Source: Candidatus Roizmanbacteria bacterium RIFOXYC1_FULL_41_16 (GTDB taxonomy: Bacteria; Patescibacteriota; Microgenomatia; UBA1406). Taken from it: a stretch of 50,249 nt of DNA. Under the pieces are notes generated by a model. The model made no database searches. It saw only the letters and a program-made list of their open reading frames with translations, and was not told where the DNA came from. The stretch lies in the NCBI GenBank assembly GCA_001788295.1, contig MGBO01000021.1, positions 162,562 through 212,810 of the forward strand. Reading direction: 5' to 3'. This document shows positions 435-48,210 of the stretch, piece by piece. The position numbers and the translations under genes were made by a program. Within the stretch, counting starts at the first letter, position 1. Each line of letters begins with the position of its first letter.

Positions 435-462
435 ATTATGACAGTTTGATAGAATTTTGCAA
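435..462 (-). promoter_or_regulatory. leaderless promoter of the cohesin-like gene
   Basis: TTGCAA (457-462) is followed by 16 nt and CATAAT (435-440) on the minus strand; 6 nt then separate it from the ATG at 428. Transcription would start at or next to the start codon. Confidence 0.6.
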
Positions 463-475
463 CCAAATCTGCGGG

Positions 476-504
476 TTGCTTTTTTTTACTTTGATTATTA
501 CAAT
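476..504 (+). promoter_or_regulatory. leaderless promoter of the SAM hydrolase-like gene
   Basis: TTGCTT (476-481), a 17-nt spacer, TACAAT (499-504), then 6 nt to the GTG at 511. The two boxes are identical to those of the 16S promoter at 34437-34465. This decides the start of the downstream gene. Confidence 0.7.
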
Positions 505-510
505 GGACGC

Positions 511-1323
511 GTGAAGAATTTGATCATTATCGCCGACTACTGCCAGGATACTTTGACCACTCAGGAATTGAAAAGTGCTTTTATTGGTCACTTGAGTTCT
601 TCTTTTTCCAGTCAGCTAAGTTTTGTTCACTCTACTCCCTCCACTATTCACACCGCATTTTTACTAAAGCAAATTCTCATTACCGAAAGCCGGCTTGGTG
701 ATCCTAATAATCTGGTGATTTTTGTTAATACCGATCCTCGGCTTCAAACCATTAAGGGAGTCAAGCTTTCCCAGGGAGCCCAGTTTGTCGTGGCCAAACT
801 CAAAAATGGCGCCTGGCTTTGTGGGCCAAACGCCGGTCACAGCTTTTCATTAATCCGGGAAGAAATTGAATATCTGTACCTTTATCCCAACCTTGACAAA
901 GGCAGCCAATTCCGCTCACGAGAATTGTATATGAGAGTGGCGGCACTTTTGGTTGAGGCCAAACAAGACGAGATGCAACTGGAGGAAATTCGCAACAACG
1001 ACATTCTGGTTTTAAACGAGTTTTATATTGGCCACATCGACAACTACGGCAATATGAAAACCACAGCCCCCAATTCGTTTATGAAAGGCAAGCATGAATT
1101 TGGTGAGAAAGTGAAAATTACTTTAAACGGCCAAAACAAAGAAGCGGTCTATACTGATAATATGTTTGGCCAGGAACCCGGAATGCTGGTTTTGGCCCCA
1201 GGCAGTAGCGGCCTGCCCAACGATCCTTATCTGGAATTAATCATCTGGCAGCATTATCCCGACACTTCGGCTCGCAAAGCTTTCCCCCAAGCTAAACCCG
1301 GTGACGAGATAAAGCTAATTTAA
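511..1323 (+). CDS. SAM hydrolase (adenosine-forming)/DUF62-like protein
   Basis: The product (270 aa) resembles the S-adenosyl-L-methionine hydroxide adenosyltransferase family (old name DUF62, related to fluorinase), which splits SAM to adenosine and methionine. The N-terminus NLIIIADY matches the family's opening strand and conserved Asp. A GPNAGHSF segment stands where the family has its Pro-Asp/Asn-Gly loop. The C-terminal domain has IDNYGNMKT, matching the family motif VDxFGNxxTN. A longer reading from a TTG at 457 is possible, but the extra residues would lie over the promoter, and GTG 511 puts the conserved strand right at the N-terminus. The gene is transcribed away from the cohesin-like gene at its left. 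The family role in free-living bacteria is SAM turnover; its role here is not shown by context. Confidence 0.8.
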   Translation: MKNLIIIADYCQDTLTTQELKSAFIGHLSSSFSSQLSFVHSTPSTIHTAFLLKQILITESRLGDPNNLVIFVNTDPRLQTIKGVKLSQGAQFVVAKLKNGAWLCGPNAGHSFSLIREEIEYLYLYPNLDKGSQFRSRELYMRVAALLVEAKQDEMQLEEIRNNDILVLNEFYIGHIDNYGNMKTTAPNSFMKGKHEFGEKVKITLNGQNKEAVYTDNMFGQEPGMLVLAPGSSGLPNDPYLELIIWQHYPDTSARKAFPQAKPGDEIKLI

Positions 1324-1353: not shown

Positions 1354-1818
1354 ATGATAATTTCGCTAAGAGAAGTCGATGTGATTGGATTTTTGGGATT
1401 GAATAAAATAATGAAGCCAGGAGAAATTGATGAATTGCTTGAGGGTCTGAATAAAGAAATTTGGTTTCGCCTCTTTCATCAAGAATTACCCAAAATTTTA
1501 AATCAAAAGGAGTTTAATCAGTTGGTAAAAAAACATGAGCTCGCCTCTAATCTAGACTCAATCACTGCCGAAATTGAGCAGAAATGGCCGCATTTTAACT
1601 TTCGTCTTATAATTAATAAGATTGCTACTCAAGTAAAAAAGGAGTTTGTTCTTAATTATTTAACAAAACTGTCTCAAGACTACGCCAGTAATGCGGATTT
1701 ACAAAAATTGATTACTCAAATCAAGACTTTTTTTGAAAAAAAAGAACTCAACCAGAAAAAACTCGATCAATTTCAACAACAGCTTTACCGATTAGTGATC
1801 TCAGCCGCCTCAGATTGA
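1354..1818 (+). CDS. small helical protein, DUF5663-like
   Basis: A 154-aa protein with no signal peptide or membrane segment, predicted to be almost all helix (runs of Lys, Glu, Gln and Leu). The first 45 residues, a short acidic helix followed by a leucine/phenylalanine pattern, recall the small DUF5663-type proteins common in CPR genomes, as does the 123-aa protein at 19517-19888. That family tie is an impression. The ATG at 1354 sits 6 nt after TATAAT. Its last 34 bases overlap the 3' end of the giant PBP-like gene on the other strand, so the two transcripts would be complementary there. Function unknown. Confidence 0.75.
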   Translation: MIISLREVDVIGFLGLNKIMKPGEIDELLEGLNKEIWFRLFHQELPKILNQKEFNQLVKKHELASNLDSITAEIEQKWPHFNFRLIINKIATQVKKEFVLNYLTKLSQDYASNADLQKLITQIKTFFEKKELNQKKLDQFQQQLYRLVISAASD

Positions 1819-4800
1819 TTAGTCTGGCGAATAAGTCCAATATAAGGCAAGGTAATATTTTTCTGTAGATAATTGTTATATTGCTCATCAGAAAGGCCTG
1901 ATAATAGACTAACCAAATTGTCATTAGTAACGGCAATAATTCGTGTTTCACCCTTTCCAGTAACATTACTGTCGAAAATCAACATATACTCTTGACCACC
2001 GGCAGTCACCCCACGATGTAAAACAATTCCAATATGGCCAGTACTGTCAAATTGTGGCGATTTGGAAACAAAAAGATCTCCGGGCTTAAAGTCATTAACC
2101 TCTGGTTTATCAAGCCATGTTTTGAAAAAATCACTCACTGTTCCCTGTTCTCCTAAGGCAAATTTAATCCCACCCATAAAACCAGCGGCATTCCCAATTG
2201 TTTGCGAATTGGCCCCGAATTCACTGATACCGGTTGAGGCCAAACCAGAATGATCATATTGGAAATCCAGGCCAAGTGATCCCACCAAAGAAGGAAAACT
2301 CATCACACTATCAACACAGTCAAAATGACCTTGTGAAGAGAACAAAGAGTCAAGCCAACTAGTCATTTTAATCCCCTCTAATCCTAATCCTCCTTCGTGT
2401 AGTTTTTTTGCAAATATATCTCTTAGCAATTCCTCTTTAGCGCTTTCAGACAAACCTTTGATCTGAATAGATTGCTGATATGCATAATCTAAAGCATCAG
2501 CAATTACCACTAAACGCCTGCTTAAAACCTGCTCAGTATTCTCTTCAACTAATGACTCGGATGAAGGCTGTGTAATTATCTGTTTAATAACTTGGTCAAT
2601 ATTAATCCCATCAAAAGAGGTTTCGGTAACTGCAGCCGTTACTTCTACCATATCAGGTTCAATAACTACGGGCACCGCTGAAAAAGCCATTGGCGGTACT
2701 TGACTAGGGATTTGTGATTGAACTAATTCCAGTTTTTGCATCAGCTCTGGCCAGGTGGTTTTCTCAATTCGCAATAAAGACTGTAAAAATTCCTGTGACA
2801 TTGTCGGATCAGGTAAACTGGTTGATCCAGGAACAATATTAGTGGATTGACCATACAGTACTTTAAAAGCTTGATAGGCCCGTACTAAATCTGGAGCGGC
2901 AGTTAGAGCATTAGGACTATCAATTATCGCCAAAAAACGGTGTACCAAGGCCGTTCTCTCTTTAGGTAAAGGTAAATTTCCCTGAAAAAACATGGTATCC
3001 AAGAAAATATCCAGTAAACGTCTTTGACTACTGGACTGATTGTTTACAAACATCAGTTGATCCATATTTAGATCCAAGTTGGCGCTACTTACTATCCGTT
3101 CAATTGCCGAATACCCTTGCTGATGTTGTAGATAATAAAGTAGGTTTGGAACATTGTCTTCTGTAAAATATAAACCGGCCAGTTCTTCATTAACAAACAC
3201 GGTGTGACTGGGATCAAAACCCAACTGTTTCATGGCCAAGCCAAATTCCTCTGATCCGGCAAACAAATGACCATTTTGCTTCATGTGATGATAAATCGTT
3301 TGCAAGAATGGTGAGTTATTTTGTTCACCGACTAAAACAAAACGAAACCCATGAGCCTTGAGGCGCTCTAAGGTTGGCTGACTTTCGACTAAATTAGGCA
3401 ACAAATCAACAAATAACTGATCCCAGGTTTTTTGGGAATAGAATTCGGTGCTGCCAGGTGTTATTGTCTCTACTAATTCCTGAGGAACGGCTAGAGTGGC
3501 AATGCGCATTCCTTCATCAGTGTTAAAAGCAATTGAAACATTTTGAACACCATTTTCACTTTCGCCAATTAAATCAACATAATAGTATTTTTCCAGACCT
3601 AGAATTTCTTGAGGATCAAAACCAGTCACCTCTTTCAGTGTTCGACGGATAAAAGTGGCTGGAATCTTGGCCATTGAGTAATTAGTTATTGGTGACTGAC
3701 CATTAAAAATTAAGTCTAGTGAATTAAGCGCCACTGCTGGTGAAGTCGTTTCTATTTGCCCTAAACCATGACCGATTCTAACATTAGCCGGCAAGGCCGT
3801 GAGGCTTCCCTGCATTCCCCATTGTTCAAGACCAATTTGTTTCTGACCATCATAACCAGAATTAACGGTCAACAGTACTCGAACTTGGCCATTTGGTAAA
3901 TGCATCATATAAACATCAACGGTGTTTTTCACTCCCAAAGCTCCTAAATCTGCCGTACCGGTTTTACTGGCACAGACTGCCTGCTCATCAATCCCACATT
4001 GTCCACTCATTAATGGCCTAATTCCTCCCCAAATACTGGCACTAACTGGATTGTCACGGTTGTCATCGTCGGCCAAAGTGCCAAAAATTAAATCAGCTTG
4101 TTTAATATAATCCGGCTTAGCGGCAAAGAAAGCCTCAGGATTAGCAATCATCGAGTAAGCCCGAGCAAAAGCTTCGGCTCCGCTTTTATCAGCCCCTTCA
4201 ACACTTCCCAAAGGAACAAGCCCAATTTCAAATAAGTGCGGGACTTGATTATCCAGCTGTTTCAAATCACCTTCAAAATATATTTTCAGTCCTAATTCAG
4301 CTAATACTCTCTGAACATTGGCATAGCCGTCTTCTGGATGACGTTCTAGATATTCTCTCATCGCAGCCACAATCGGCCGATTTTGCGAATTAACAATTGC
4401 CTGAGCCAAAGTTTGTGTTGGCGTGGTGTTAGAAAGATTCCAAGGATTGCCATCATTATTAAGGGTCATACCGTTAATTTCAAAGGGTGTATTTGGAATT
4501 GGTTGATTGGCTTCGATTGAATATCGTTCTGGCTCCAGAACCGAAAGAACAAAAACCATGAGCGGCTTAACTGCACTTCCAAATTCCTGTGGACCAGCAG
4601 CAATAACACCAGTTAAATCAGTACTAGTCAATACTTCACCCGATCCATCAGTAATAATGGTCGCGATTCCTGGATTAACAATTGTTTCACCATTGGTTTC
4701 TGTAACCCAAGTCGGCGTTAATCCGGTAAAGCCTTTGGCTTCAAAAGTAAACGGAACCGCTGGGTTATGATCTTGCAGCTGCGAAGAAAACATCGCTGCA

Positions 4801-7800
4801 TAATGCCCCTGAACCCATAGACTGGTATTCTGCGCTGTAGTTAATTCGTACGGTTGAAAAAGTTCATGTGGCAATACTTTTTCCGAATGCTTCAAAATTG
4901 TCGGCAACTCAATCATTAATATACCGTCAGCACTCCAACTCACTCTGCCATTTTTCTTGGCTTCTTCTAAAATTGCGTCATTTAGAATTAAAGCTTGATT
5001 GGATCCGTTTAGGCCAAAAAATTGATTGATTTCCGGGTCTTCGAAGATATTTGGGTCATAATAACCAGGTGGAACTTTGTTTAAAAAATATTTATCGGGT
5101 TGACGAGCGATTCCATCCAGCTCGGCCATCCATTGATGCCAAAGTTCAGGATTAGAAGTTTGGATTGGTCCAAATTTTTCACTAACCATTAATTGATCTT
5201 TGGCTCGTTCAACCAAAGTTTCGATTTTAAAGCGAAAAATAGCGTTCCTCTGTTCCTCAGTAATATTATTAAAATCAAGCTTAACCCCAGACTGTTCTTG
5301 AAAAAGTAGAAAGTCTTCTTGGACTAGAGTCGCTGGCGACCAACGATCGCCAGCTTGAGAGATAACAAAAATCAAGTGCTGTTGAGGTAGGGTTAGTTCA
5401 TTGTAATGCTGGCCCAAATAAACCTGAGCCATCATGTCCCAACCGCGTATCTCTAAACCATTGATGTGCCCACCCGGAACCCAGCGAGCATATATTTGCG
5501 CTAATTCATCAGCCGTATACAGTTGGCCCAAGCGTTGCCCAGCCAAATAAGTTTCCAGTTTCCAACAAAGTTGTCCCAAAAGAGTTTGGTATTTTTCTTG
5601 ATCGGCCTGATCTAGCACTGGACGGACTTGTTCAATGTTAAACGAGGCTTCCAGATTTTTGGGTATATGCCCGCTCCAAACACTGCCAAAAAGTTTTAGT
5701 AGATATTCGGGACTATATTGATCTGGCCGATGCAAAAAAGATGGTTCTCGTCCAATCGTAAATTGGCCCGGACCACCGCCCAGCCAATCAATCATGCTCA
5801 TGGCATAATCCGACGAACCCGAAATCTTGGCGCCTGGAAATAGACGGCCGCCAGAAATCTCCATCAGTTTATATTTGAGATTCCGGCCAATAAAACGGCT
5901 CATAAAATGCCAGGCCTGATTATCTTGTGGCGCTTGCTCAATACTCAACCACTCCTGTGCTAAAGGAAAGTCAGTCACATTACTTTGCAAGGGCTGATAA
6001 GCGCCTTCATAAACCCCATTACGAGTAAAAATAATTGGCGGCAGCTGAGCTTGAGCAAGCATGGCCGTTTCCAGATGCAACCGGCCATCCAATACATTCA
6101 CTAACGTATCATTAACAGAACCATTCAAATTCAGTTCAAACTCCGGACTAAAATATGTGGCCGATTCAATTTCCATACCCACTGGTTGAAAACCAAGCTG
6201 GGTTGAATGATGAACCAAAGCATTTTGCAAAGATTGTTTAACTGGAGCCCCAGTTTGATTAGCAGCTAACAAAATCGCTTCATATAATTGCTGATTTTTT
6301 GCCGGATTCTCGCTGACAAAGATAGATTCAACCTGACCTGAGAAATGAGTTTCGACAAAGTGATAAATGCTATTAAAAGCAGCCACGTCACCTAAAATCG
6401 CTCGATCATATAGTACTCGCAAATCGGCTTTACCATCAAACTCCAATTGTTCCAGTTTTTTCCAAATCAGTGTTGTCTGACTACCCAATTCAGGATTTGT
6501 TTGAGCTAAGAAATCCACATAATATGGATTTCCCAAAGCGATTTGTAAGTCTTGATCTTCTCCCTGCATCAATCCTTGCATCTGCCTGATCAGACCTTCG
6601 GACCATTGACGATCTTGATATTTGACCCCTTCCATAAACTCGGCTACCAAAGCAGAGTCTTGACCTTTTATTGCCAGAATTCGATTATTTAACCAACCGG
6701 TCCAAATTATCGGCTCCTCGTTATTTAAGATTTGTTCTCGGATAGCTTTGGGCACTTTTAAATAGCTCACCTGATCTTCAAAACTAATACTGATCCCAAG
6801 TTTGCTCGCAAGCTCAGGTCGAGTTACTTGTAGTAGCGCTCCGAGATTAGTTGCCTCAATAGTTTCGGTTAGCCAAGTTCTGGGATTATTATCACGACCC
6901 ATGAAAAAAGCAATTGTCATGCTCAGATCAGCGGTCGTTTTACCATTGGCATTTTGAGCAATTACTTTAAGCTGATCTTCATTTCCAGTTCGCAGTAATA
7001 GATTAGTAAAATAACACAATTCTTCAATAGACAAATTAGAGGCTCGCAGCTGATTTTCAAAATTCAGAAATGACTCTGGAGTTAGACGATAATTGTCTAA
7101 AGTGGCCTCCTGCCAAACATTATCCAATTGAGTTCCAGATAATAAACCTCGACTCTGTAACTGAACATTTAGAGTGTGTAGATGACTAATTTTAGCGCTA
7201 ATTTCATTATTAATTGCCTCTTGATCAGTCGGATCAAATTCAAACAACTGACTTTCGGTAAAATCACGGGCTACTCCATTAATCACTTCCTGAGGTTGAT
7301 AATCAACTCCCCACTCCCCTGATAAGCCTTTTCCTACGGTCTCGGCCAGATGATGCAAGACCGGAATCGTTCTTGTCGCTCCAACTAATAAAGTTGAAGT
7401 TGTTCCGGTTAAAGCATTATAAATTAATTTTCGCTCTTTTAGGCGCTGACGAAAAGTTTTTTCTGTCGTCTGGCCGTGAACAAAACCAGAGCTGATCGCT
7501 AAAATCTGCTGTAATCCCTGGCATTCCTCTGGCGAATAATGGTGGCAAGCATAATCACTAAGTTGTTCGCGCAAAACATCAATCTCTCTAAGAATTTGAC
7601 GATTGTCTAAGCGGATTTTACGATCAGAATCATGTATTATTCGCGCTCCATAACGAGCCTCATTGTGAGCTAATAACAACATCATTTCCAATTTTGTCTG
7701 ACTCAATAGATCAGCAACAGTTTCCAATTCAGACAAACCAAATTGGCCTTGATAAAAATCACTCACCTGACCAGTGGTCAACAACTGACAGTGACCTTTA

Positions 7801-10091
7801 AAACGAGCCAGGGCTTGAAGGCGTTCACGATTTTCCTGAGTTCGTTGGGCCAGCTTGCCAGCCCGCCGTGACCTTGTTTCCAGTAAATTGCGCTTAGTTA
7901 CTAAAGGCAAATCTTCCGGATCTAAATGAACTATTTCGGCTGCTTGATTAACTACGGTCTTGTTAAAAAAAGCCTGGTTAATTAAGGATTCAGTCCCTGT
8001 TGCTTTAATTCCCAAAGAGGCTAATACTTGATCACTTAATAATTTGGCGACGGTTAAACCGCCAATTAACGTAGGCGAATCCAAATTCTGGCCCAAACCA
8101 ATCTGATTCATTGCTAAATTAGTTCCGGCAACTAAACCGGCACCAATAGTCCCTCTTAATAAACCTTTGGCTATTATCGGATAGTTGAGATGTTTAAAAA
8201 CTAAAGGTTTTTGATACCATTTCAGGTCTGAGGCCTCTTTGCCCAAAAACCAGGCCCCAGCAATCAATCCACCATTAATTAAGGGCAGCATATTACGTAA
8301 TACTTCGTGATTCAGTGTTCCCTCAGAGCTATAGTTGGCCAAACCCAACAAACCAGCAGTAATAACTCCAGGTAGAGCGTATTTAAGCGAAGCGAGGGCC
8401 TTTTCCTTTAGATTTTTTCCCGGAACCCTTAAGCGACCAAGGGTTTCCCCTTCTGGGGTAAATAGCCATTGTTTTAAACCCCGAGGAATTTTTTTTCCTT
8501 TAATTAGGGCTCGATGCCAAAAAGAGGTTTGTTTTAAGGCTAGTAGAGCCCGCTCACGGGTTTCTTGCCTCAGCGCCTCAGTATGACCCAGAGCTTCAGT
8601 TAATACCAAGTCTTCATCAGCCATGGTCTCGGCCAATTCCTCTTGGGATTTTTCAATTAGAGCCTGCTTTTCTAAAAATAATTCACGATATTGTTTCGCA
8701 GCATAACAACCGTAGGCAAAACCGGACAATGGACTTTTATTATCACTAACCAAGTGTTGATACAGCAGATCACCTTGTTGAGCAACTAACCACATTAAAA
8801 AATCATCAATCTTATTAACCTCGCCATGTTGCAGTTTCTGATAGCGTTTTTGTAGTTCAATCGGAAATCGCCCCTGATCTAATAATTGCAGAATTGAAGA
8901 ACGATAAGAACCAAGGTGTTGAGTAAGTTCACTTTGCAGTGTTTGCCTAGCGGCTGATTGTACCTGCTGTAATATTGGTTGCAAATGACCAAGTTTTTGT
9001 TTTAAAGCAACTAAATCTGCTTGCTCTCCAGAGACCAAAGGCAGATGATAATTGCTCAAACCCAGCTCTTCTCTTAAACTATAAAGAAAGCCCAAAGAAA
9101 CTTTATCAAGGGGTTGGCCAAACAACTGTTCCTGATAACCCAGAATATGCTGGGCAAAACCAGGCTCAAGTTGATTATGCCCAGAGGCATCTTTGGTTTG
9201 GAATAACCGGCGCAGTTGTTTGAGCTCGTCTTTTTTAGTTAAAGTCTGATCAAGATTCAGATTATCAGCCAAACGAGTCGATAATTGATTTTGCCAATAA
9301 TCAGAAGTCGTTGTTAGAGGTAACTGGCCATATTGATGATCAAATTCTAATAAGGCTTGAGCGACACCACAACCTAAATTAAATTGATCACGACTGTAAT
9401 CCCAAAGATAATAATTTTCAATTACGGCTGGCTCGGCTTTGCAGTATTCCTGAAAAAGCCTTTCCAGGTCAAAGGACTTTAGCTGTTTGGCTTTTTCAGA
9501 ACTAATCAAACCTGATCGACTAAGGTATAACCGAAAACCTTTCGCTTCTTGATCATTAAAATCATCCTCCGACAATCTTGCTAATTGGATGGTCGCCTGT
9601 TTCTGAACCAATGCCAATTGCTTGGCCGCCTCAGCGACTAAGGCCTGAGCTAGTTCCGGTTGTTCTTGATGATTAATCAGTAACTTGCTCAAAGTCCCTT
9701 GATAAGTTTGGTTATTGACTCTTAAGACCAAATTTTTTTGATCACGTAAACCATAAAGTAATCCCAGAGACAGGGTGTTGATTCTTGATACCGGAGTTTG
9801 GTCTTTGGGTAGATAACCTTCCGGTAAGTCCAGATTACGTAAGGCTTGTGGTGCAAACCGGAAAAACATGGCTTCTGAGGAATCTCCAAAAGAGCGTGCC
9901 AAAAAATCCTCTTGCTGTTTAAAATATATTTCCTGATCTGGCTGATACCGATCATACTGTTTGGTAATTAATTCTTGGCTGATAATTGTTTTAGCAAGAG
10001 CCTGATGGCTAGCAGGTTTGGGGCTTTCTGATTGTGCATTTCTGACATCTTCTTGAATTATTGGGCTTTCCACGACACTAACTTCGCTCAT
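1785..10091 (-). CDS. giant class A PBP fused to a CHAP/NlpC-like hydrolase
   Basis: A 2768-aa protein. The first 570 residues appear cytoplasmic and contain an internal duplication (about 90-285 and 330-480). Gly-rich hydrophobic segments near 570-590, 600-620 and 640-660 should insert in the membrane. Residues about 1370-1640 look like a divergent GT51 glycosyltransferase: E1385 in SIEQAP stands near the usual catalytic Glu position, and an LYTADELAQIYARW segment matches the family's KDEILELYLN region. The canonical GxSTxxQ motif is not clean. Residues about 1800-2060 form a transpeptidase with S1839-A-V-K1842 (SxxK), S1902-Q-N1904 (SxN) and KTGT at 2043-2046. The end, about 2560-2760, is a CHAP or NlpC/P60-like cysteine hydrolase with C2592 (FDCVDS) and H2686 (GHIGIV). 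It would polymerise, cross-link and possibly cut peptidoglycan outside the membrane. No Shine-Dalgarno or clear -10 precedes the ATG; the gap to the upstream gene is 52 nt, so cotranscription is likely. Confidence 0.85.
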   Translation of the reverse strand: MSEVSVVESPIIQEDVRNAQSESPKPASHQALAKTIISQELITKQYDRYQPDQEIYFKQQEDFLARSFGDSSEAMFFRFAPQALRNLDLPEGYLPKDQTPVSRINTLSLGLLYGLRDQKNLVLRVNNQTYQGTLSKLLINHQEQPELAQALVAEAAKQLALVQKQATIQLARLSEDDFNDQEAKGFRLYLSRSGLISSEKAKQLKSFDLERLFQEYCKAEPAVIENYYLWDYSRDQFNLGCGVAQALLEFDHQYGQLPLTTTSDYWQNQLSTRLADNLNLDQTLTKKDELKQLRRLFQTKDASGHNQLEPGFAQHILGYQEQLFGQPLDKVSLGFLYSLREELGLSNYHLPLVSGEQADLVALKQKLGHLQPILQQVQSAARQTLQSELTQHLGSYRSSILQLLDQGRFPIELQKRYQKLQHGEVNKIDDFLMWLVAQQGDLLYQHLVSDNKSPLSGFAYGCYAAKQYRELFLEKQALIEKSQEELAETMADEDLVLTEALGHTEALRQETRERALLALKQTSFWHRALIKGKKIPRGLKQWLFTPEGETLGRLRVPGKNLKEKALASLKYALPGVITAGLLGLANYSSEGTLNHEVLRNMLPLINGGLIAGAWFLGKEASDLKWYQKPLVFKHLNYPIIAKGLLRGTIGAGLVAGTNLAMNQIGLGQNLDSPTLIGGLTVAKLLSDQVLASLGIKATGTESLINQAFFNKTVVNQAAEIVHLDPEDLPLVTKRNLLETRSRRAGKLAQRTQENRERLQALARFKGHCQLLTTGQVSDFYQGQFGLSELETVADLLSQTKLEMMLLLAHNEARYGARIIHDSDRKIRLDNRQILREIDVLREQLSDYACHHYSPEECQGLQQILAISSGFVHGQTTEKTFRQRLKERKLIYNALTGTTSTLLVGATRTIPVLHHLAETVGKGLSGEWGVDYQPQEVINGVARDFTESQLFEFDPTDQEAINNEISAKISHLHTLNVQLQSRGLLSGTQLDNVWQEATLDNYRLTPESFLNFENQLRASNLSIEELCYFTNLLLRTGNEDQLKVIAQNANGKTTADLSMTIAFFMGRDNNPRTWLTETIEATNLGALLQVTRPELASKLGISISFEDQVSYLKVPKAIREQILNNEEPIIWTGWLNNRILAIKGQDSALVAEFMEGVKYQDRQWSEGLIRQMQGLMQGEDQDLQIALGNPYYVDFLAQTNPELGSQTTLIWKKLEQLEFDGKADLRVLYDRAILGDVAAFNSIYHFVETHFSGQVESIFVSENPAKNQQLYEAILLAANQTGAPVKQSLQNALVHHSTQLGFQPVGMEIESATYFSPEFELNLNGSVNDTLVNVLDGRLHLETAMLAQAQLPPIIFTRNGVYEGAYQPLQSNVTDFPLAQEWLSIEQAPQDNQAWHFMSRFIGRNLKYKLMEISGGRLFPGAKISGSSDYAMSMIDWLGGGPGQFTIGREPSFLHRPDQYSPEYLLKLFGSVWSGHIPKNLEASFNIEQVRPVLDQADQEKYQTLLGQLCWKLETYLAGQRLGQLYTADELAQIYARWVPGGHINGLEIRGWDMMAQVYLGQHYNELTLPQQHLIFVISQAGDRWSPATLVQEDFLLFQEQSGVKLDFNNITEEQRNAIFRFKIETLVERAKDQLMVSEKFGPIQTSNPELWHQWMAELDGIARQPDKYFLNKVPPGYYDPNIFEDPEINQFFGLNGSNQALILNDAILEEAKKNGRVSWSADGILMIELPTILKHSEKVLPHELFQPYELTTAQNTSLWVQGHYAAMFSSQLQDHNPAVPFTFEAKGFTGLTPTWVTETNGETIVNPGIATIITDGSGEVLTSTDLTGVIAAGPQEFGSAVKPLMVFVLSVLEPERYSIEANQPIPNTPFEINGMTLNNDGNPWNLSNTTPTQTLAQAIVNSQNRPIVAAMREYLERHPEDGYANVQRVLAELGLKIYFEGDLKQLDNQVPHLFEIGLVPLGSVEGADKSGAEAFARAYSMIANPEAFFAAKPDYIKQADLIFGTLADDDNRDNPVSASIWGGIRPLMSGQCGIDEQAVCASKTGTADLGALGVKNTVDVYMMHLPNGQVRVLLTVNSGYDGQKQIGLEQWGMQGSLTALPANVRIGHGLGQIETTSPAVALNSLDLIFNGQSPITNYSMAKIPATFIRRTLKEVTGFDPQEILGLEKYYYVDLIGESENGVQNVSIAFNTDEGMRIATLAVPQELVETITPGSTEFYSQKTWDQLFVDLLPNLVESQPTLERLKAHGFRFVLVGEQNNSPFLQTIYHHMKQNGHLFAGSEEFGLAMKQLGFDPSHTVFVNEELAGLYFTEDNVPNLLYYLQHQQGYSAIERIVSSANLDLNMDQLMFVNNQSSSQRRLLDIFLDTMFFQGNLPLPKERTALVHRFLAIIDSPNALTAAPDLVRAYQAFKVLYGQSTNIVPGSTSLPDPTMSQEFLQSLLRIEKTTWPELMQKLELVQSQIPSQVPPMAFSAVPVVIEPDMVEVTAAVTETSFDGINIDQVIKQIITQPSSESLVEENTEQVLSRRLVVIADALDYAYQQSIQIKGLSESAKEELLRDIFAKKLHEGGLGLEGIKMTSWLDSLFSSQGHFDCVDSVMSFPSLVGSLGLDFQYDHSGLASTGISEFGANSQTIGNAAGFMGGIKFALGEQGTVSDFFKTWLDKPEVNDFKPGDLFVSKSPQFDSTGHIGIVLHRGVTAGGQEYMLIFDSNVTGKGETRIIAVTNDNLVSLLSGLSDEQYNNYLQKNITLPYIGLIRQTNQSEAAEITNR

Positions 10092-10143: not shown

Positions 10144-13100
10144 TTACTCTCTACTCTGCTCTTCCTCCAGCTTCTTTTTATATATTAATTCAGCTAACAA
10201 AAGACCATAACGACGACTGGGTGTAGTCGATAAACTCGGATTTTGTTTAATCTCTCTTTCAAATTCTTGAATTAAGAAGTGTAAAGAATCCGACGTAAAA
10301 CTGTTAAGAACATTTCCTAATCTAACTTCAAGCCAACTTTTTTCATTATAAGTGTCATCTTTAATTCTTCTCACTTTCCCTATAACACTGAGAGTTTGTC
10401 GAATACGATCTAGACTATCTTGAATATCACCGCTAAAGTAATTGGTTAGTTGATCTGGATCCAGCAATTTCCCAGAAATTAAGTCCTGATAGATTTTCTG
10501 CTCTTCTGGATTTAATTCGTTTGCTTTTTGTGCATCTATAGAAGCTATTAGATCATCTTTTAAATCATATGGATCGTTAAACTGGCCCGCTGACTCAGGT
10601 TCTTCTTGTAACCAATCTGGTGTGGTTGGAGATTGAGGTACTTGCTCTTTTGGCTCTTGTTCAGGAGCCGGCTCAGCTTGAGAAGATAATTCTTCTAGAT
10701 CATGTTCGTCGTCAGCCCCCTTATTCTGATGAGCGCTGGCCATCCTACCTTTTAAAAATCCAGGAATATCAGATTGATCAATACGCGTAGGAGCTGGCAC
10801 TGCTGACTCAGTTGGTAATTGTTCACTGAGAGCTTGATTCATCATGCCAGGAATTGCATCTTGATCAACCACTTTAGTTGGTACTCTCACATAGTCTGGA
10901 TTAGGTATTAGCGGATTTTCTACTGGCTCGCCAACTTGTTTAACTGGCGTATCGATTTCTATATCCTGAATATCTTGTTTTACAAAATTAGGAGTTGATC
11001 GAGTTTGGCGTTGCCTGGGCGGACGAGCTGGCCTTCTAAGCCTACCTGTTACCTCTCTAATGCGAGAAGTAAGCCTGTTGACTAGTTGCCTTGCCCGATT
11101 AACTTTTGGCTCAGCTGGAGTGACTGCTTGTTCTAATTCGGTTGTTTCGGTCTCAAGCTCTGTGCCAAACTTTGGCTCTACCACTGTATCTTGTTCTACT
11201 CTACTCTCAGTCTCGGCTACAGTCTCGGGTTCGAACCCGAGCTCTGCCTCAGTCTTAGGCTCTGTCGCAGGCTCTGAGTTTAACTCTAGTTGTGAAGGCA
11301 AGACAGCTGATAGTTCTTCTGAACCAGTAAAATAGTAGTACCCTTCATCATCACGAAGAACAGCCATGATCCAACGGTTGCTAGTTTCATTTTTGAACTC
11401 TAACGGTTGATTCTGACCAGGAATTACGACCGATAAGATAACATTTGGCGGAATATTGTACGTTGTCCGATTCTCCGGCTCAGGAGTTGTTACAGTAATT
11501 GTGGCCTCCTCTGACCTAAGGCTAAGCCAAACTTCATCGACGATAACTCCTTTTGGTAAGTTAAGTAAAACAGAAGAACTATTGGATGGTAGATTTAGCT
11601 CTACTGACTTGATGGTTAAGCTACCAAATTGAGCTAATCGGGGAAGCAATGAATCTATCTGAGTCTGATCACTTAGAAGAAGAGTTTCAATCGTATATTT
11701 TGGGTCTTCTCCTTCTTGACCTTCAGTTTTAGTAGCCATATTTTTCTCAACTAAGGCGTCCAGTATGTTTTCTTTTTGGAAAGGATCTAGATCAATTTCT
11801 AAAGTAGCAAAACCATTAAAAATCCTTACTTTTTCAGCCGTCGAGTCAGGTTCGATAGGTAGAGGTGCTTCCGGTGCAGGCGCAGGTGGAATTGTGGGTA
11901 AATTCGATGATTTAACAGTTGGTAACGGCTCTTGCGCTGGGGCCGAATCTAAAGACTCGGGAGTTTCCCCAACTGGTTCGCCCCCTCCTGCTCCTGATTC
12001 CCCAGAAGTTCCTTCTGTAGTTGGCGCTGGTGGAGTTGGTTCTTGATATTCATAAAACAAACCTTGCTCATCTTTTTTTGAAGCCCCAGTAACTCTTACT
12101 ACTTCGATTGGTTTGGGAGAGCTACCTGGCTCAAGTTTACGAACACTTAAGCTCTTGCCTCTCTTTGCCATTTCTTTCCGACTTTTAGCCCTTGGTTTTA
12201 ACTCATCAACAATAACCACTGCATAGCGGGGTAACTCTTGTTCATCAGCTGGTACTTTTTCAGTAGCCTGAGCAGTGAAAAGATAAGCAAATCCTTTTAG
12301 AGCATCTTGTTGATGTAATCGTGGATTAAGATCAGCCAAACGGTTGCCAGTATTAATTCGGTCCCAGATGTTCTTATCGCGGCCAGTAGCGGCTCGCATT
12401 AATTCAATATCTAATTGCTGAACCAAATCATGATTAGCAGTATCACCTTGTTGATATTGATGTCCAACTAAACCATGGAGGGGATCTTCCTGAGCCGCAA
12501 ATTTAGATAAAATAGGATAATCAGCTGAATTTGATCTGATATAGCTCCAGATATCCTCTGATAGATTTGGACCAGCCTCTTTTTGACGACCAAATTTTCG
12601 GCGTTTAAATCTTCCTGAGACCTCCAGAGTCACTAATTCCTGACTTAATTGATCTCTATCAATTTCGCCTATATTTAAATTAAGCTGCTCGTTAATTTGA
12701 GTTAAAAGATCAGCAGCTCTATCTTGGTGAACTTTTCGGCCAGGAACCTCGTCTTGTTTATAACGTCTGGCCTGCTTAATTAAACGTTTGGCAATTTTTT
12801 GATCCTTATGATCAAAGTTTGAATAAAACCAACTTTCAAATTCCTGTTCAGAATCATTAAGAATAATGTGTTGCGCGGCCACAAAAGTTTCATGATTAAG
12901 GCCAAGATGGCTTAACATTTCACCTAAACGCTGATCAATAACCTGACCATAGTCCGCATTGCTCCAGTCGTTAACCCGCTGAGCCGCAAAAGAGGCTAAT
13001 CCAGAAAGCTCACCGGAATGATCTTCAAGCATCTTTAAAACATACTCTTCCATTTTTTCCTGGCTCTCAGGAGTTCCATTGGGATTGTCCTCAACCAAAG

Positions 13101-14394
13101 CTTTAATAATCAAGTCTGTATTGGTTAGTCCCATCACTCGCATTAATGCCAACCGACCCACCTGCTGATGTTCCAAAAGAGCCTGCTTGGCTTCTTGGAT
13201 CTGTCGGCGAACAGCAATAGAATCTCCTTGAGTTAGATTTGCATCAACTACCGCCTGCATTAATTGTTCTTGTGTGAGTACAAATTCTGGTGGCAACAAG
13301 GTCCAGGTATAGCGAGAAGCCAAGAAAATATCACGTAAAAAAGGTGCTTCAAGATCTTCTGTTCCTTTTTTACCAGTAATAATATCTACTCTACCCTCCG
13401 GTTGTTTTTGTCGACCAGCTTGACTTCGAGTAGTAACTCTTTCATGAATAAATTCTGCCGGACCACTGATTCTTCTGGCAACCTGAACCGACCTAGTTGC
13501 GGCATCTTCTTGTTTTTCTTCTAATATCTGTTTCATTGTTGCCTCGGTCCAATTAATATATTCGTTATAACTGAAATCAACTCCATATCGCAAACCATCA
13601 AACATATCAACAACATCAAGCGAACGTGGATTTTGACCTAAGTCATCAGGAACATCTACATGTGACAGAAAACCAACATTGCTTGACTGCCCAAACATTC
13701 GTCTCATAAATTGTTGAACAATTCTGGAACGATCTTGTTTTTGAACATCGTTTAAGAGATGTTTTTTATCTTCCTGAAGAGCTAGTTCTGAGCTGATGTT
13801 TTCTAAAATATAAGCAAGACGAACGGTATTTAAGCGATAACGCTCTGCCTCCTGCTCAACCTTGGTATTAAATTGACCTGGCAAATCGTTGTCAATAAGC
13901 TTAAACTTGTCTCCGTCTTGCTCCAAGGAATAGCCCATTTTTTCCAAAGTGGCTCTTGCTTGACTAATTTGATCTTGATCGTTTGATTTTTGAGCTTGCT
14001 CCAATACGCTTTGAAAATAATGCTCAACAATTTGTCCAGAATGTTGACTAAAAAATTCACCGATATAAACAGGTTGAGGAGCTTCTGATAGTCCATCTGT
14101 AGATTTAGCCTTACGGTCCAGAATCTTAAATTTTTCACTCGCCTGCTCTTCGGGTTTTTCACTGGTAATTAAAGAGTCGCTTCTAACTATGTCCTCTCCC
14201 TTAGGTAAAAGCAATGTTAAGGCCAGATTGGGATCGGTCATTTTAGCGAAATTATCAGGATAATATGGCAATTTCAACAACTCTTGGCGATCAATTTCGT
14301 CTGGACGGAGGAAAGTACGGCTTTGCTGTTCTGAAATACGGGTTGATAAAGACTGTTGCTTGAACCTTTCAAGAGAGTCATTTCCTTCGGACAT
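10144..14394 (-). CDS. 1416-aa acidic protein of unknown function
   Basis: I do not recognise this protein. It has no signal peptide or membrane segment, so it is probably cytoplasmic. Residues 1-740 are mostly helical and charged. A disordered Pro/Glu/Thr/Gly-rich linker follows (about 785-870), then a small beta-rich domain (about 870-1010), a Glu/Thr/Pro-rich acidic run, an Arg-rich patch (RLRRPARPPRQRQTR) and a helical C-terminus. Two short copies of a motif occur late in the chain: VDQDAIPGMMNQALSEQ and IDQSDIPGFLKGRMASA. The gene lies just upstream of the giant PBP-like gene on the same strand, and is divergent from the PP2C gene across a short promoter region. The alternation of globular and disordered parts suggests a scaffold or adaptor for neighbouring membrane proteins; this is inference. 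Confidence 0.8.
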   Translation of the reverse strand: MSEGNDSLERFKQQSLSTRISEQQSRTFLRPDEIDRQELLKLPYYPDNFAKMTDPNLALTLLLPKGEDIVRSDSLITSEKPEEQASEKFKILDRKAKSTDGLSEAPQPVYIGEFFSQHSGQIVEHYFQSVLEQAQKSNDQDQISQARATLEKMGYSLEQDGDKFKLIDNDLPGQFNTKVEQEAERYRLNTVRLAYILENISSELALQEDKKHLLNDVQKQDRSRIVQQFMRRMFGQSSNVGFLSHVDVPDDLGQNPRSLDVVDMFDGLRYGVDFSYNEYINWTEATMKQILEEKQEDAATRSVQVARRISGPAEFIHERVTTRSQAGRQKQPEGRVDIITGKKGTEDLEAPFLRDIFLASRYTWTLLPPEFVLTQEQLMQAVVDANLTQGDSIAVRRQIQEAKQALLEHQQVGRLALMRVMGLTNTDLIIKALVEDNPNGTPESQEKMEEYVLKMLEDHSGELSGLASFAAQRVNDWSNADYGQVIDQRLGEMLSHLGLNHETFVAAQHIILNDSEQEFESWFYSNFDHKDQKIAKRLIKQARRYKQDEVPGRKVHQDRAADLLTQINEQLNLNIGEIDRDQLSQELVTLEVSGRFKRRKFGRQKEAGPNLSEDIWSYIRSNSADYPILSKFAAQEDPLHGLVGHQYQQGDTANHDLVQQLDIELMRAATGRDKNIWDRINTGNRLADLNPRLHQQDALKGFAYLFTAQATEKVPADEQELPRYAVVIVDELKPRAKSRKEMAKRGKSLSVRKLEPGSSPKPIEVVRVTGASKKDEQGLFYEYQEPTPPAPTTEGTSGESGAGGGEPVGETPESLDSAPAQEPLPTVKSSNLPTIPPAPAPEAPLPIEPDSTAEKVRIFNGFATLEIDLDPFQKENILDALVEKNMATKTEGQEGEDPKYTIETLLLSDQTQIDSLLPRLAQFGSLTIKSVELNLPSNSSSVLLNLPKGVIVDEVWLSLRSEEATITVTTPEPENRTTYNIPPNVILSVVIPGQNQPLEFKNETSNRWIMAVLRDDEGYYYFTGSEELSAVLPSQLELNSEPATEPKTEAELGFEPETVAETESRVEQDTVVEPKFGTELETETTELEQAVTPAEPKVNRARQLVNRLTSRIREVTGRLRRPARPPRQRQTRSTPNFVKQDIQDIEIDTPVKQVGEPVENPLIPNPDYVRVPTKVVDQDAIPGMMNQALSEQLPTESAVPAPTRIDQSDIPGFLKGRMASAHQNKGADDEHDLEELSSQAEPAPEQEPKEQVPQSPTTPDWLQEEPESAGQFNDPYDLKDDLIASIDAQKANELNPEEQKIYQDLISGKLLDPDQLTNYFSGDIQDSLDRIRQTLSVIGKVRRIKDDTYNEKSWLEVRLGNVLNSFTSDSLHFLIQEFEREIKQNPSLSTTPSRRYGLLLAELIYKKKLEEEQSRE

Positions 14395-14649: not shown

Positions 14650-14657
14650 TATTGAAT

Positions 14658-17600
14658 ATGGTGAGTGAAGGATTACCTATCAATTTACGGGTTGCCAGCA
14701 ATTTAAGACAGAAATCGACTCAAGAACCTGTCAGTGTGGCTATACAACAGTTTAAGAACAAAGCTGAAAAAGATGCTTCTAAAATTGAGTCAGTTGAACC
14801 GTTGGCCACAGAACCTAATCTGCCGCCTGCCCCAATTGAACCCTCCGAACCTTCACCAACACCGGAATCAAATGATAATAATGATTCTTTACCGCCAGCG
14901 CCCTCAAAAACTAAGGAAATCACTCCACCAGAACCTCCACCGCCAATTCCCCCACGACTGGAACCATTACCTCAACCCGAACCGCCACCTCAACCTAAAT
15001 TGCCAGAAACTGATTTTCAAGTCGCTTTTGTCGGTTTACAAAACGCTCTAATCCAAGAGGGTCAGCGGCTCGAAGAAACTTACAAATCCTGGGAGCAAAG
15101 TGACAGTATGCTACACGATTGGCGCTCTAAACCAGCTTTATTAGTTTCTCGTATCCCTCACATTGGCTCTTTTTTAAGCGGAGCCGCATATTCATTGGCT
15201 CATCCAATTAAATCTTTATGGCAAAATGTTTTGCTATCGAAGCATTTTGATAATCGCAACAAGCGCTTTAGCCGCGAATTGATATTGGCTTTAAAAACCA
15301 AAGATTTAGCTATGGCTCATGTCGAAATTCCTCAGGAATTTATGCAACAAGCTTTAGCCGAAGGGAAAAAGCGCCGCAACGCCACGATTTTGACCCGTTT
15401 GGGTTCGGCTTTTTGGGACGTTACTTTGGGTAATTTGGGTTGGCAGAACTCTGTACAACGTTCAACTCTTCGCTTTCTTCAGTCTGATGACGCTAATCCC
15501 TTAAGACAAAATTTGGAACAAGTGGTTAAGGATAGTTTAAAAAAACAGGAACGCTTGGCTAGCGGCCTTACCAAACATATCGAACAAGCTGGCCAGGCCG
15601 AAGATCTGTTAATTGCGAAAGAATTTGGCGAGGAGCGCAGCCGTTTACAAGCGGCTCCAGAAGTTCAGCAACAACTTGATACTCATTTCAAAAGTTTAAT
15701 AAGTCAATTTCATGATCAAACTCTGACTGAGAAAGCTTTTATTGCCGAACTTAATCGCTATTTGGCCAGTGAGAATTTTCAGAAACACCTAACTGATGAA
15801 CAAAAACAATATTTTAATCAACCCGAGTTTGCTAGCAATTTATTACAGACTGCTAAACAAATACACGAAAATTGGGATTCTTACCAACAATCAGATCAAC
15901 ATGAAGGCAAGAATGGCTCTTACTTTGATAGTCTCCACTTTGATATCATAATTGGTCAAGCAGAGTGGCATGAAGCCCGCGAAAAACTAAAAGGCAATGA
16001 AAAACAACAAGCCAGAGAACAAGCTTTATACCTTGAACTAACCAGATATGACCAGTTTTCTGCTACTGCCGGTAATTTACAACAGGCAATGAACTGGCAA
16101 CAACGCAATCATGGAATTCTTGAACGCACACTTGAGGGAGCAATTAGTAGCCCACTCACCGCTTATCTTGCCGGGGAAACAATTGGCGGCTTATTGACCT
16201 CTCTACCTTTGGGTCTAACCCGAATGGCCGGCTTAATTCCTGGCCCAGTTATGGCTGGAGTCAGCGCTGCTTTGGGTACACGTAGCCAACTTACTCATGA
16301 GCGCCAACAGGTATCACGAGAATCAGCCATGGGATATATGAGCGAACATCCACAACAACGCCGAGCCGAACTAGAAAAAACCTTAGTCCAAACGCGTTCT
16401 GCCACTGAGCTTTATAATCAAATTAAGGATTTATTAAATAAAGAAACTTTAAACGAAACAGAACAACAGCAGTTACTTTTACATGCGGCTCATCTACGCA
16501 GTCGATTACGCTTAACTGACCTTTCAACTAAAAATAGTCGTGTCCAACAAAATTTTATTGACTACAGTGACGCTAACAATCAAGAACTTTTGGGCTGGTG
16601 CAACGAAAATAATTTTACTCCGGATCGGCTTTTACGCAGTAGCTTAATTCAAGCTCAGGAAAAGCTTATCCGCTCTGGAATATCGGTTGAAAATACCAAC
16701 AGTCAGCTGGCTTTGTTTACCGACGTCATTACAGCTCAATTATTAAACGCCAGCCAAGATGTGGCTCAACTTGAGCAAGCCCTTAAAGAAATGCAGAAGA
16801 GGTATCATGAGCGCGGTTTAACCAATATAGACACTCAAGCAAGTGCTAATCAGATCACTCGGGCATTAGCCTTAATAAAAGCTAACCACCTTGACATTGA
16901 AGAGGCCGAATCATTAATTCACAAAGATCGCTGTTTTCAGCGTTATCTAACTGCTCAGATGGCTTATATGGGCGTTAAAACGGCTGCTTTCAGCTTGGCC
17001 TCTGGCCAAATGATGGGTTACCTTAATCCAGTTACTTATGCGACTTCGGAGTTACACAGTGCTTTTTCACAACAAGATTATGCTCAAACATGGGCTCAAG
17101 TTTGGCAAGGAAAGGCCGAATCGGGAACCGAACTGTCTTTGGCACAGAATATTATTCAAACTTTAAATAATCATTTAAAACCTGAGTCACCCTTTAGTGG
17201 TCCGACTGAGTTTGATTTTACCGACGGCGCTGGCGTCAATCACGAATTTAATATTAACGGTCTTAATCCGGCTCTTCGTTTTAGCGGAAATTTATTAATT
17301 GACCAGCGGGATGGACAAGTTGTCGGCTTGATTAACCGAAGTAATGGCCAGTTTGTGGCTCAGGTACCTGATTGGCAATCAAGAATGGAGTTACCGATAA
17401 TTGAACCTGGCCTGCCCGATTACACCCTGGCTTTTGATTACAACTCCCCAACCCATGAACAAACGATTCAGATTGATGGTCAAACTGTTAACATTCAAAT
17501 ACCCCAAGGAACAGAACTTTTTCAAGACTTAACCACGGATCCCAACGGTCGGACCTATGATTTGCAGGTAGCTATACCTAGAAATGGTTTGAATGATATT

Positions 17601-19520
17601 TTAGTTCAGGATATTGTTTTTAAAGAAGATGGCACGCTTAATTATGCGCCTCATCAAGATTTCAACATTAAGATTGAAACGCTTACTAGTCCTGACGTTA
17701 GCCCAACCGAACCAGAAACAACTCCTGAGTCGGTTGAAATTAACGCACAACAGTTTTGGCATGACGCTGCCGATAGTTATCGGGTTGTTCATGCCCGATC
17801 AGAATTGCCAGTAGCCATTACTAACCATCTTATTTCGGCCGAAAACCCCACCAGCGACCATCCTTTTGCGGTTGAGTTTCGCTTTCCAGAATCTATGGTT
17901 CATAATCCAAACATTAACAAAGATCAAAGTTTAAATACTTTTTATCAAGACGGCAAACTTGGTTTGCTGTTTCAAACAATAGAACTAGATCCAGATGGTA
18001 AGGAAATTACTCGCAGTATATTTTTACCAGTTGAGGAAACTTTTGATCATAATGGCCGAACATACTATCGCACAGTATTAGATCCAACCAGTGACGACTT
18101 AGTTGCCTTACCACGTCCCTTTAACGGCCAAACATCGATCAAGGAATCAGATTTGGCCCAGTTGATACTGAATGAAGAGTATCTGAGCCAACAGTCAGAA
18201 GGAGCCCTTAATTCCGAACTGACTTATGAGGGCCGGCAAGCCTTTAATTTGGGCCACCAAATGGTGAATAATAAAATTATCGATGGTCGCATTTTAGGCG
18301 GATATTTTGATGAAAATAAAACCTTTATAACGACTCATGCTATCCATGGCTCTGGTGATTTAAAAGATATTACAGTGGAAATTGATAAGCCGGTTACTCC
18401 ACCACCAGAACCGCCGCCAGCTGAACTCGGCCTTAAAATCGGCTTAGATGGTGAATTTCATCAGCCAGGAACTCCTGAAACAGTAGTTATTATTCCAAAA
18501 ACATTGGTTACTGATTACAAAGTCGCCCCTGGCTTATATAGCACTCGCATGAATTTGGAACTTGGTCAGAAAAGTAAACCTACAGAGCCTAAATTAACCG
18601 AACTTGAACCGACTGAAGAACTAGAGCAAACTATTACTCTCCCATCTCGACTTGAATTAGACGGCCAGACAGAACAAGTCGGAACCACAGAGTTTGGAAC
18701 AACCACTGTTTTAATCAACGGTCGTCAATATCAGGCCAGCGTCGCCTCAGATGCTGGCGGGACCCGAGCCGAAGATGAAGATTACTCTTTAATTACCTCA
18801 GGCAAGCTACAAGACTTGGATTATTCTTTTTTAGGGATTTTTGATGGCATGGGCGACCATGCCCAAGGAAATAAAGCCTCAGAGATAGCCGCCGAAGCTT
18901 GGAAAAAGACCTTATTAGCTTATCAAAATCAATATAAAGAAACTTCTCTTCCAGAAATTAATGAGCAATTTGTCTCTGATTTAACCTTGTTTTTCAGAAA
19001 AACTTTTAAGGAGCTGGCTCAAGAAAAACAGCTCGACAGTACGGCTGGCACAACCATGACGGCCATATTTAGCCTGGGCGGGAAAACTTTCACTCTCAAT
19101 TGTGGAGACAGTCGAATTTATCGCCAACGCGACAATCAACTTGAACAGTTGACCAATGATCATAGTGCCATCTTTTCTGATTGGAAAGCCGGCCAACTAA
19201 CAGATGAACAGGCAAACAAAGCCGAAGGGAAAAATATTATTTATCGAGTTATCGATGTGGGAGGAAAATCTAAAATAGATATTACCCAACTCGACTTACT
19301 CTCCAATGACTTGTTGTTATTAACCTGCGATGGCATTCCCGAGGCTTTTGATGATGAATATTCTCATAATCCCCAAACATTATTAAGTGCTCTTAATGTT
19401 GCTAGCCTTACGGATAAACCAGCTCTGGAACTGATTTCTCAAGCCCTTAGTCGAAAAAATAATAAAGCCGCGGATAACTTATCAGTCATTATCTTAAAAA
19501 AAGAAAAAGCAAGCGCTTAA
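14658..19520 (+). CDS. 1620-aa protein with C-terminal PP2C phosphatase domain
   Basis: The C-terminal 260 residues form a PP2C-type Ser/Thr phosphatase. The metal-binding motifs are present in order: RAEDED near 1367, FDGMGDH with D1396, an AGTTMTAIF strand, GDSR at 1483-1486, CDG with D1558, and ADN with D1606. The N-terminus (about 65-115) is disordered and contains polyproline runs. A long helical region follows, with hydrophobic Gly-rich segments near 490-540 and 770-795 that probably cross the membrane. Beta-rich extracytoplasmic-looking domains fill about 850-1300. If the hydrophobic segments pair, both ends would be cytoplasmic, as a PP2C domain needs. It would remove phosphate from Ser/Thr proteins; no kinase is in the window. 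ATG 14658 is preferred over a TTG two codons upstream because of the promoter spacing. The stop shares TTAA with the convergent gene. Confidence 0.85.
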   Translation: MVSEGLPINLRVASNLRQKSTQEPVSVAIQQFKNKAEKDASKIESVEPLATEPNLPPAPIEPSEPSPTPESNDNNDSLPPAPSKTKEITPPEPPPPIPPRLEPLPQPEPPPQPKLPETDFQVAFVGLQNALIQEGQRLEETYKSWEQSDSMLHDWRSKPALLVSRIPHIGSFLSGAAYSLAHPIKSLWQNVLLSKHFDNRNKRFSRELILALKTKDLAMAHVEIPQEFMQQALAEGKKRRNATILTRLGSAFWDVTLGNLGWQNSVQRSTLRFLQSDDANPLRQNLEQVVKDSLKKQERLASGLTKHIEQAGQAEDLLIAKEFGEERSRLQAAPEVQQQLDTHFKSLISQFHDQTLTEKAFIAELNRYLASENFQKHLTDEQKQYFNQPEFASNLLQTAKQIHENWDSYQQSDQHEGKNGSYFDSLHFDIIIGQAEWHEAREKLKGNEKQQAREQALYLELTRYDQFSATAGNLQQAMNWQQRNHGILERTLEGAISSPLTAYLAGETIGGLLTSLPLGLTRMAGLIPGPVMAGVSAALGTRSQLTHERQQVSRESAMGYMSEHPQQRRAELEKTLVQTRSATELYNQIKDLLNKETLNETEQQQLLLHAAHLRSRLRLTDLSTKNSRVQQNFIDYSDANNQELLGWCNENNFTPDRLLRSSLIQAQEKLIRSGISVENTNSQLALFTDVITAQLLNASQDVAQLEQALKEMQKRYHERGLTNIDTQASANQITRALALIKANHLDIEEAESLIHKDRCFQRYLTAQMAYMGVKTAAFSLASGQMMGYLNPVTYATSELHSAFSQQDYAQTWAQVWQGKAESGTELSLAQNIIQTLNNHLKPESPFSGPTEFDFTDGAGVNHEFNINGLNPALRFSGNLLIDQRDGQVVGLINRSNGQFVAQVPDWQSRMELPIIEPGLPDYTLAFDYNSPTHEQTIQIDGQTVNIQIPQGTELFQDLTTDPNGRTYDLQVAIPRNGLNDILVQDIVFKEDGTLNYAPHQDFNIKIETLTSPDVSPTEPETTPESVEINAQQFWHDAADSYRVVHARSELPVAITNHLISAENPTSDHPFAVEFRFPESMVHNPNINKDQSLNTFYQDGKLGLLFQTIELDPDGKEITRSIFLPVEETFDHNGRTYYRTVLDPTSDDLVALPRPFNGQTSIKESDLAQLILNEEYLSQQSEGALNSELTYEGRQAFNLGHQMVNNKIIDGRILGGYFDENKTFITTHAIHGSGDLKDITVEIDKPVTPPPEPPPAELGLKIGLDGEFHQPGTPETVVIIPKTLVTDYKVAPGLYSTRMNLELGQKSKPTEPKLTELEPTEELEQTITLPSRLELDGQTEQVGTTEFGTTTVLINGRQYQASVASDAGGTRAEDEDYSLITSGKLQDLDYSFLGIFDGMGDHAQGNKASEIAAEAWKKTLLAYQNQYKETSLPEINEQFVSDLTLFFRKTFKELAQEKQLDSTAGTTMTAIFSLGGKTFTLNCGDSRIYRQRDNQLEQLTNDHSAIFSDWKAGQLTDEQANKAEGKNIIYRVIDVGGKSKIDITQLDLLSNDLLLLTCDGIPEAFDDEYSHNPQTLLSALNVASLTDKPALELISQALSRKNNKAADNLSVIILKKEKASA

Positions 19521-38705: not shown

Positions 38706-38709
38706 TATG

Positions 38710-48191: not shown

Positions 48192-48197
48192 TAATAA

Positions 48198-48203
48198 AGT
48201 ATA
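48198..48203 (-). promoter_or_regulatory. -10 element of the CHAP-like gene
   Basis: TATACT on the minus strand, 6 nt before the ATG at 48191, in the 19-nt gap after the preceding stop codon. Confidence 0.55.
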
Positions 48204-48210
48204 CAAATTC

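Follow-up and report, generated by a model that had tools for sequence, protein, structure and literature searches.

A rare, mosaic 2768-residue PBP-type protein with GT51-like, transpeptidase and CHAP-like regions in a Patescibacteria genome

Overall Architecture of the Giant Protein

The window, which is the whole 50,249-nucleotide stretch of DNA that was analyzed, belongs to a genome of 900,803 bases in 22 contigs (94% complete) and carries a giant PBP-type gene on its minus strand, with a small gene of the opposite strand at its 3′ end (Table 1). The giant is encoded by a 2768-codon frame, 10091–1785, that starts with ATG and contains zero internal stops. From its N terminus, the chain begins with a duplicated region and five weakly hydrophobic segments; a GT51-like region and a penicillin-binding transpeptidase come next, and a region spanning aa 2111–2480 precedes the CHAP-like domain.

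Table 1. Positions in the window of the giant gene, its predicted regions and residues, and the linked small gene
Feature	Position	Strand	Remarks
Giant PBP-type protein, 2768 aa	1785..10091	(-)	single ORF; intact homologous ORFs of 2824, 2501 and 1548 aa
N-terminal region, aa 1-563, predicted cytoplasmic	8403..10091	(-)	duplicated, diverged helical-looking domain, copies at ~41-265 and 271-500
Four weakly hydrophobic segments, aa 564-693	8013..8402	(-)	mean hydropathy of 4 homologues
Fifth hydrophobic segment, aa 894-912	7356..7412	(-)	averaged hydropathy
Divergent GT51 (transglycosylase) domain, aa 1350-1640	5172..6044	(-)	hhalign with canonical class A PBPs: 97.8% (local), 99.0% (global)
E1385, aligned with motif I catalytic Glu; ED -> EQ	5937..5939	(-)	global profile alignment and sequence
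E1513, aligned with motif III Glu; RKxxE -> CxKxE	5553..5555	(-)	invariant in 4 members
Transpeptidase, aa 1790-2110; S1839xxK1842, S1902xN1904, K2043TGT	3762..4724	(-)	motifs invariant in 4 members; hhalign 95.8%
Region between transpeptidase and CHAP-like domain, aa 2111-2480	2652..3761	(-)	common to P0001 and P0003; sub-cutoff HAD-like score
CHAP-like (NlpC/P60 superfamily) domain, aa 2575-2768; C2592, H2686, D2707/N2709	1788..2369	(-)	hhalign 90.6%
Small linked partner, 154 aa	1354..1818	(+)	tail-to-tail with giant, 34-base overlap; homologue beside giant in 4/4 full-enzyme loci

Searches of 96 relatives at the protein level and of the order with a profile yielded homologues of 2824 aa (P0001, genome G042), 2501 aa (P0002, G052), and 1548 aa (P0003, G044), as well as a 731-aa open fragment (P0004, G072). 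The enzyme-bearing homologues share the Patescibacteria order of the window genome and belong to genera other than its own. The first-pass annotation had described one 2768-aa chain at 1785–10091 and had raised the possibility of a frameshift or an assembly error. The uninterrupted frame and the intact homologues in other genera bear out the single chain, and a local assembly join is ruled out for the giant because three different intact long homologous ORFs exist. No junction signal appears in the codon-position GC pattern, which stays the same throughout the frame, and homologous fusions are present in three other metagenome-assembled genomes, one of them with an internal CHAP domain; a fusion of separate genes by artefact, already refuted for the family, has a negligible probability here. 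Judged from its distant relatives, the giant gene is real, rare, and mosaic.

The N-terminal repeat is significant in P0002 (E 2e-7), its copies cross-match among family members, and the duplicated region is missing from P0003. The hydrophobic segments that follow (564–582, 597–615, 643–661, 675–693, and 894–912) are conserved but weak in the giant, and the equivalent segments are prominent in individual family members. If all five segments span the membrane, their odd number would place aa 1–563 inside the cell and the enzyme half outside. The five weak segments within 564–912, preceded by about 563 residues, agree with the earlier description of mid-chain membrane segments behind some 570 residues.

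GT51 and Transpeptidase Regions

The GT51 (98%), transpeptidase (96%), and CHAP (91%) assignments are each supported by profile–profile comparison with hhalign, in which cross controls for these three regions gave at most 0.5% and column shuffles at most 1.4%. The canonical class A PBPs used for the GT51 comparison come from the same genomes as the giants. The PF00912 score is below the cutoff of 27 bits in the window protein, at 14.6 bits for the whole protein and 18.4 bits for the isolated region, and reaches 26.3, 54.5, and 45.8 bits in the three relatives. A four-member GT51 profile matches PBP1A (4oon, E 8.8e-12) through its motif IV–V half, and a GT51 profile gives 396–436 bits for the four giants versus at most 51 bits for ordinary PBPs of the order among the matches listed. 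These comparisons uphold the initial reading of the region as a divergent GT51.

The divergence is concentrated in named motifs. In motif I (EDxxFxxHxG), the window protein reads EQAPQ..., with the Glu kept and the remainder replaced; the relatives are similar, such that across the four members ED becomes EQ or EG and the F, H, and G are gone. Motif II (GxSTITQQ) reads SGSSDYA, the family form being SG(S/A/G)S(D/T)xA in place of GGSTITQQ, and the Arg of motif III (RKxxE) is an invariant Cys in the four members. A family-specific insert lies between motifs II and III. Because motifs I, II, and III are changed, the region argues against normal glycan polymerization, and a GT51 polymerizing activity is doubtful. 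It is accordingly at this domain that the machine implied by the first-pass annotation, in which GT51 polymerizes, the transpeptidase crosslinks, and CHAP cuts, has to be weighed: both Glu positions, E1385 and E1513, are kept in all four members and the motif IV–V half scores 54–60 bits in G052, but the altered ED, the lost motif I residues, the altered GGSTITQQ, and the exchange of the RKxxE Arg for an invariant Cys make three working activities unlikely.

In the transpeptidase, the SxxK (S1839/K1842), SxN (S1902/N1904), and KTGT (K2043–T2046) motifs are intact, occur in order, and are invariant in four homologues that share only about 21–29% identity, an invariance that points to selection for transpeptidase activity. 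A transpeptidase profile matches FtsI (4ztk) at 6e-4 in a PDB profile search, and the G052 domain exceeds the PF00905 cutoff (25.5 vs 22.1 bits). Nothing scored when the window transpeptidase region alone was searched against Pfam. The conserved motifs argue for an active crosslinking enzyme, and the transpeptidase proposed from the first reading stands, with every residue number given for SxxK, SxN, KTGT, C2592, and H2686 correct.

CHAP-like Domain and Structure Models

The CHAP-like domain was compared with eight Patescibacteria CHAP proteins of the same order (hhalign 90.6%), and column-shuffled targets gave at most 1.0% in 150 trials; the G042 domain taken alone gave 8.6%. The only Pfam match of the isolated domain is PF05257, at 13.8 bits and under the cutoff of 26, and the domain falls under the Pfam cutoff in all members that carry it. 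The best viral matches are two PHROG endolysin families (E 0.0074 and 0.021), and a PDB sequence search with the domain returned no relative. Of the three enzyme-domain assignments, CHAP is the least secure. C2592, H2686, and D2707/N2709 are nevertheless invariant in the three CHAP carriers, and these kept residues argue for an active cutter. Of the C-terminal CHAP/NlpC-like domain with C2592 and H2686 recorded at first, the profile match and the residues hold, whereas the Pfam score is below cutoff and the C-terminal position varies within the family. A separate 385-aa protein at 47103–48260 (-), 37 kb from the giant, has a C-terminal CHAP domain just over the Pfam cutoff (26.4 bits).

For the region ahead of the CHAP-like domain, a HAD-like identity of aa 2211–2300 was considered and rejected, as the score is 12.7–13.7 bits versus a cutoff of 26.4 and the DxD motif is not seen.

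AlphaFold models of aa 1340–2480 (four-row alignment, mean pLDDT 35) and aa 2380–2768 (three-row alignment, mean pLDDT 41) gave no significant match in fold searches. In the latter model, strands come after the CHAP His region, and Foldseek returned CHAP lysins only at E values of about 1 or more. Structure prediction had been proposed as a check on the folds; at this low confidence, the models neither support nor refute them.

Relatives and Distribution

P0001 aligns with residues 265–2767 of the window protein at 22% identity (E 5e-85) and repeats the GT51–transpeptidase–CHAP order with a C-terminal CHAP domain in 2824 aa, the recurrence that the first-pass annotation had suggested looking for. 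In P0002, the CHAP domain is instead located between GT51 and the transpeptidase: window residues 2640–2731 match P0002 residues 2029–2114, directly upstream of the transpeptidase match at 2111–2483. In P0003, the CHAP domain is missing. Because the CHAP domain and the N-terminal duplication vary, the conserved core of the complete genes, as read from their sequences, is the membrane region, GT51, and the transpeptidase. The G072 copy (L020:3159-5354 (-)) consists of the N-terminal and membrane half, and its frame ends directly behind the fifth hydrophobic segment; the sequence downstream showed no resemblance to the enzyme half, and a search of the G072 genome gave no family-type GT51.

A membrane-region profile matches 5 of the 83 order genomes and had no match elsewhere among the 373 class and 380 phylum genomes sampled. 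No relative of the giant was found in the viral contigs searched. By these searches, the giant family is narrow and distinct. In a tree of GT51 plus transpeptidase with canonical PBPs as the root, G052 branches off first and G044 second, leaving the window genome together with G042 (supports 92%). The taxonomic family of the window genome differs from that of G042, G044, and G052, and the tree order conflicts with the taxonomy, which suggests horizontal transfer or differential loss of the giant; this reading is tentative because the tree branches are very long.

Patescibacteria are often episymbionts, and the patchy, mosaic distribution would fit an accessory interaction gene whose CHAP domain attacks the wall of a neighbor or host during attachment or entry, while the PBP part would protect or seal the wall of the attacker itself. 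The CHAP domain is tethered to the membrane through the PBP body, however, in G052 it lies between GT51 and the transpeptidase, near the cell's own wall, and no secretion or adhesin domains were found in the chain; this explanation is accordingly rather improbable. A catalytically dead scaffold, with PBP and CHAP folds retained for binding, would be in line with the degenerate GT51 motifs and with the membrane half that stands alone in G072. Such a role is more improbable still, given that the three transpeptidase motifs and the CHAP Cys and His are strictly kept at 21–31% identity.

Small Partner Gene and Neighborhood

The partner gene is tail-to-tail with the giant in three loci; in G044 it shares the giant's strand and lies directly upstream. 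No partner homologue was found in any other of the 80 order genomes searched, including G072, which has the membrane half only. Chance co-occurrence of partner and giant in 4 of 80 genomes is about 6e-7 if the genomes are independent. The partner matched no Pfam family, and an assignment to DUF5663 was discarded (hhalign at most 2.3%).

The giant's upstream neighbor, encoded on the same strand, is a 1416-aa protein with no recognized domain (10144–14394 (-)), followed by a 1622-aa protein (14652–19520 (+)) whose sole recognized domain is a C-terminal PP2C phosphatase (residues 1391–1574). These two neighbors were rejected as parts of a conserved cluster, as no homologues stand beside the relatives' giants beyond chance. 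Elsewhere in the window are a 288-aa protein (457–1323 (+)) that matches the C-terminal domain of SAM hydroxide adenosyltransferase below threshold and a 919-aa protein (21780–24539 (-)) in which only a GNAT acetyltransferase-like stretch is recognized, slightly under cutoff. MreB is encoded at 34466–35557; near it and a Wzy_C-type ligase is a 439-aa protein (38707–40026 (+)) with a dockerin-like match above cutoff and a cohesin-like match below.

Comparison with Known Wall Enzymes

Similar to class A PBPs (PF00912 plus PF00905), the giant has GT51 followed by a transpeptidase with SxxK, SxN, and KTGT, and keeps both GT51 Glu residues. The main differences are its size (2768 aa, where almost all complete ordinary class A PBPs of the order have about 700–915 aa), five weak hydrophobic segments behind a 563-aa N-terminal region rather than one N-terminal membrane segment behind a short cytoplasmic tail, the GT51 insert, the degenerate motifs I–III, and the CHAP domain. 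Like the CHAP hydrolases (PF05257, NlpC/P60 superfamily), the CHAP-like domain has a Cys, then GD..GH, then Asn/Asp; those hydrolases are secreted lysins or autolysins, whereas this domain is part of a membrane-anchored synthase and scores below the Pfam cutoff. An extended class A PBP of G026 (L061:4033-8385 (+), 1450 aa) also has a very long predicted cytoplasmic N terminus of about 770 aa, but its GT51 motifs are canonical, it has a single membrane segment, and it is without a CHAP domain or a partner gene nearby. It was rejected as a family member, having no homology to the N-terminal half of the giant, and represents an independent enlargement.

Multiprotein complexes of synthases and hydrolases include PBP1B–MipA–MltA in Escherichia coli and PBP1–RipA in mycobacteria. 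In these complexes, synthase and hydrolase are joined as separate proteins, in contrast to the one chain observed here. No such fusion turned up in a literature search with subscription journals mostly outside its coverage, so the evidence for novelty is weak.

Proposed Function

The window genome encodes two class B PBPs as well as two ordinary class A PBP loci, one of 864 aa and the other apparently broken across two contig ends. Every enzyme-bearing host has canonical class A PBPs. Because the hosts also have ordinary class A PBPs, the giant would be an accessory remodeling enzyme or paralogue and not the main synthase. It is probably a fast-diverging class A PBP paralogue that was enlarged into a multi-pass, membrane-anchored wall-remodeling enzyme. 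The earlier argument that a synthase–hydrolase fusion suits an ultra-small cell is weak, as the gene is restricted to 5 of 83 order genomes, with none elsewhere in the sample, and its hosts keep normal class A PBPs.

For this accessory remodeling enzyme, the intact motifs suggest that the transpeptidase crosslinks stem peptides outside the cell, and the fold assignment with its Cys and His that the CHAP module cleaves peptidoglycan at peptide or amide bonds. GT51, degenerate around its two Glu residues, may polymerize poorly or mainly bind lipid II or glycan. Tethered on one chain, the two activities could remodel the wall locally at one site, opening old wall and closing new links, and the internal N-terminal region together with the small partner would probably set where or when the giant works. 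It is plausible that one chain couples synthesis with hydrolysis; such coupling is neither obligatory nor the core function, because the G044 member lacks CHAP. The full combination, a single polypeptide that crosslinks and cuts peptidoglycan and is steered from inside by its N-terminal region and a dedicated small partner, is put forward tentatively, as somewhat short of an even chance. Of the synthase–hydrolase fusion in the first-pass annotation, the fusion itself is sustained by the profiles and the intact homologous ORFs, whereas CHAP is not a fixed part, and only the transpeptidase can safely be called a wall synthase, because GT51 motifs I–III are degenerate, though both catalytic Glu residues persist.

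A passage of PMC10475089 describes the coordination of bacterial wall synthesis with wall cutting as unresolved. A natural synthase–hydrolase fusion would allow a direct test of coupling, in which one active site is mutated and the other activity is measured. As predicted from its conserved transpeptidase motifs, the giant would also offer a β-lactam-reactive target in an order of Patescibacteria that is known largely through metagenomes. The gene indicates that accessory wall genes of 8 kb can be retained in bacteria with small genomes and, if the proposed function is true, it would be a one-chain version of the synthase–hydrolase coupling that other bacteria spread over separate proteins.
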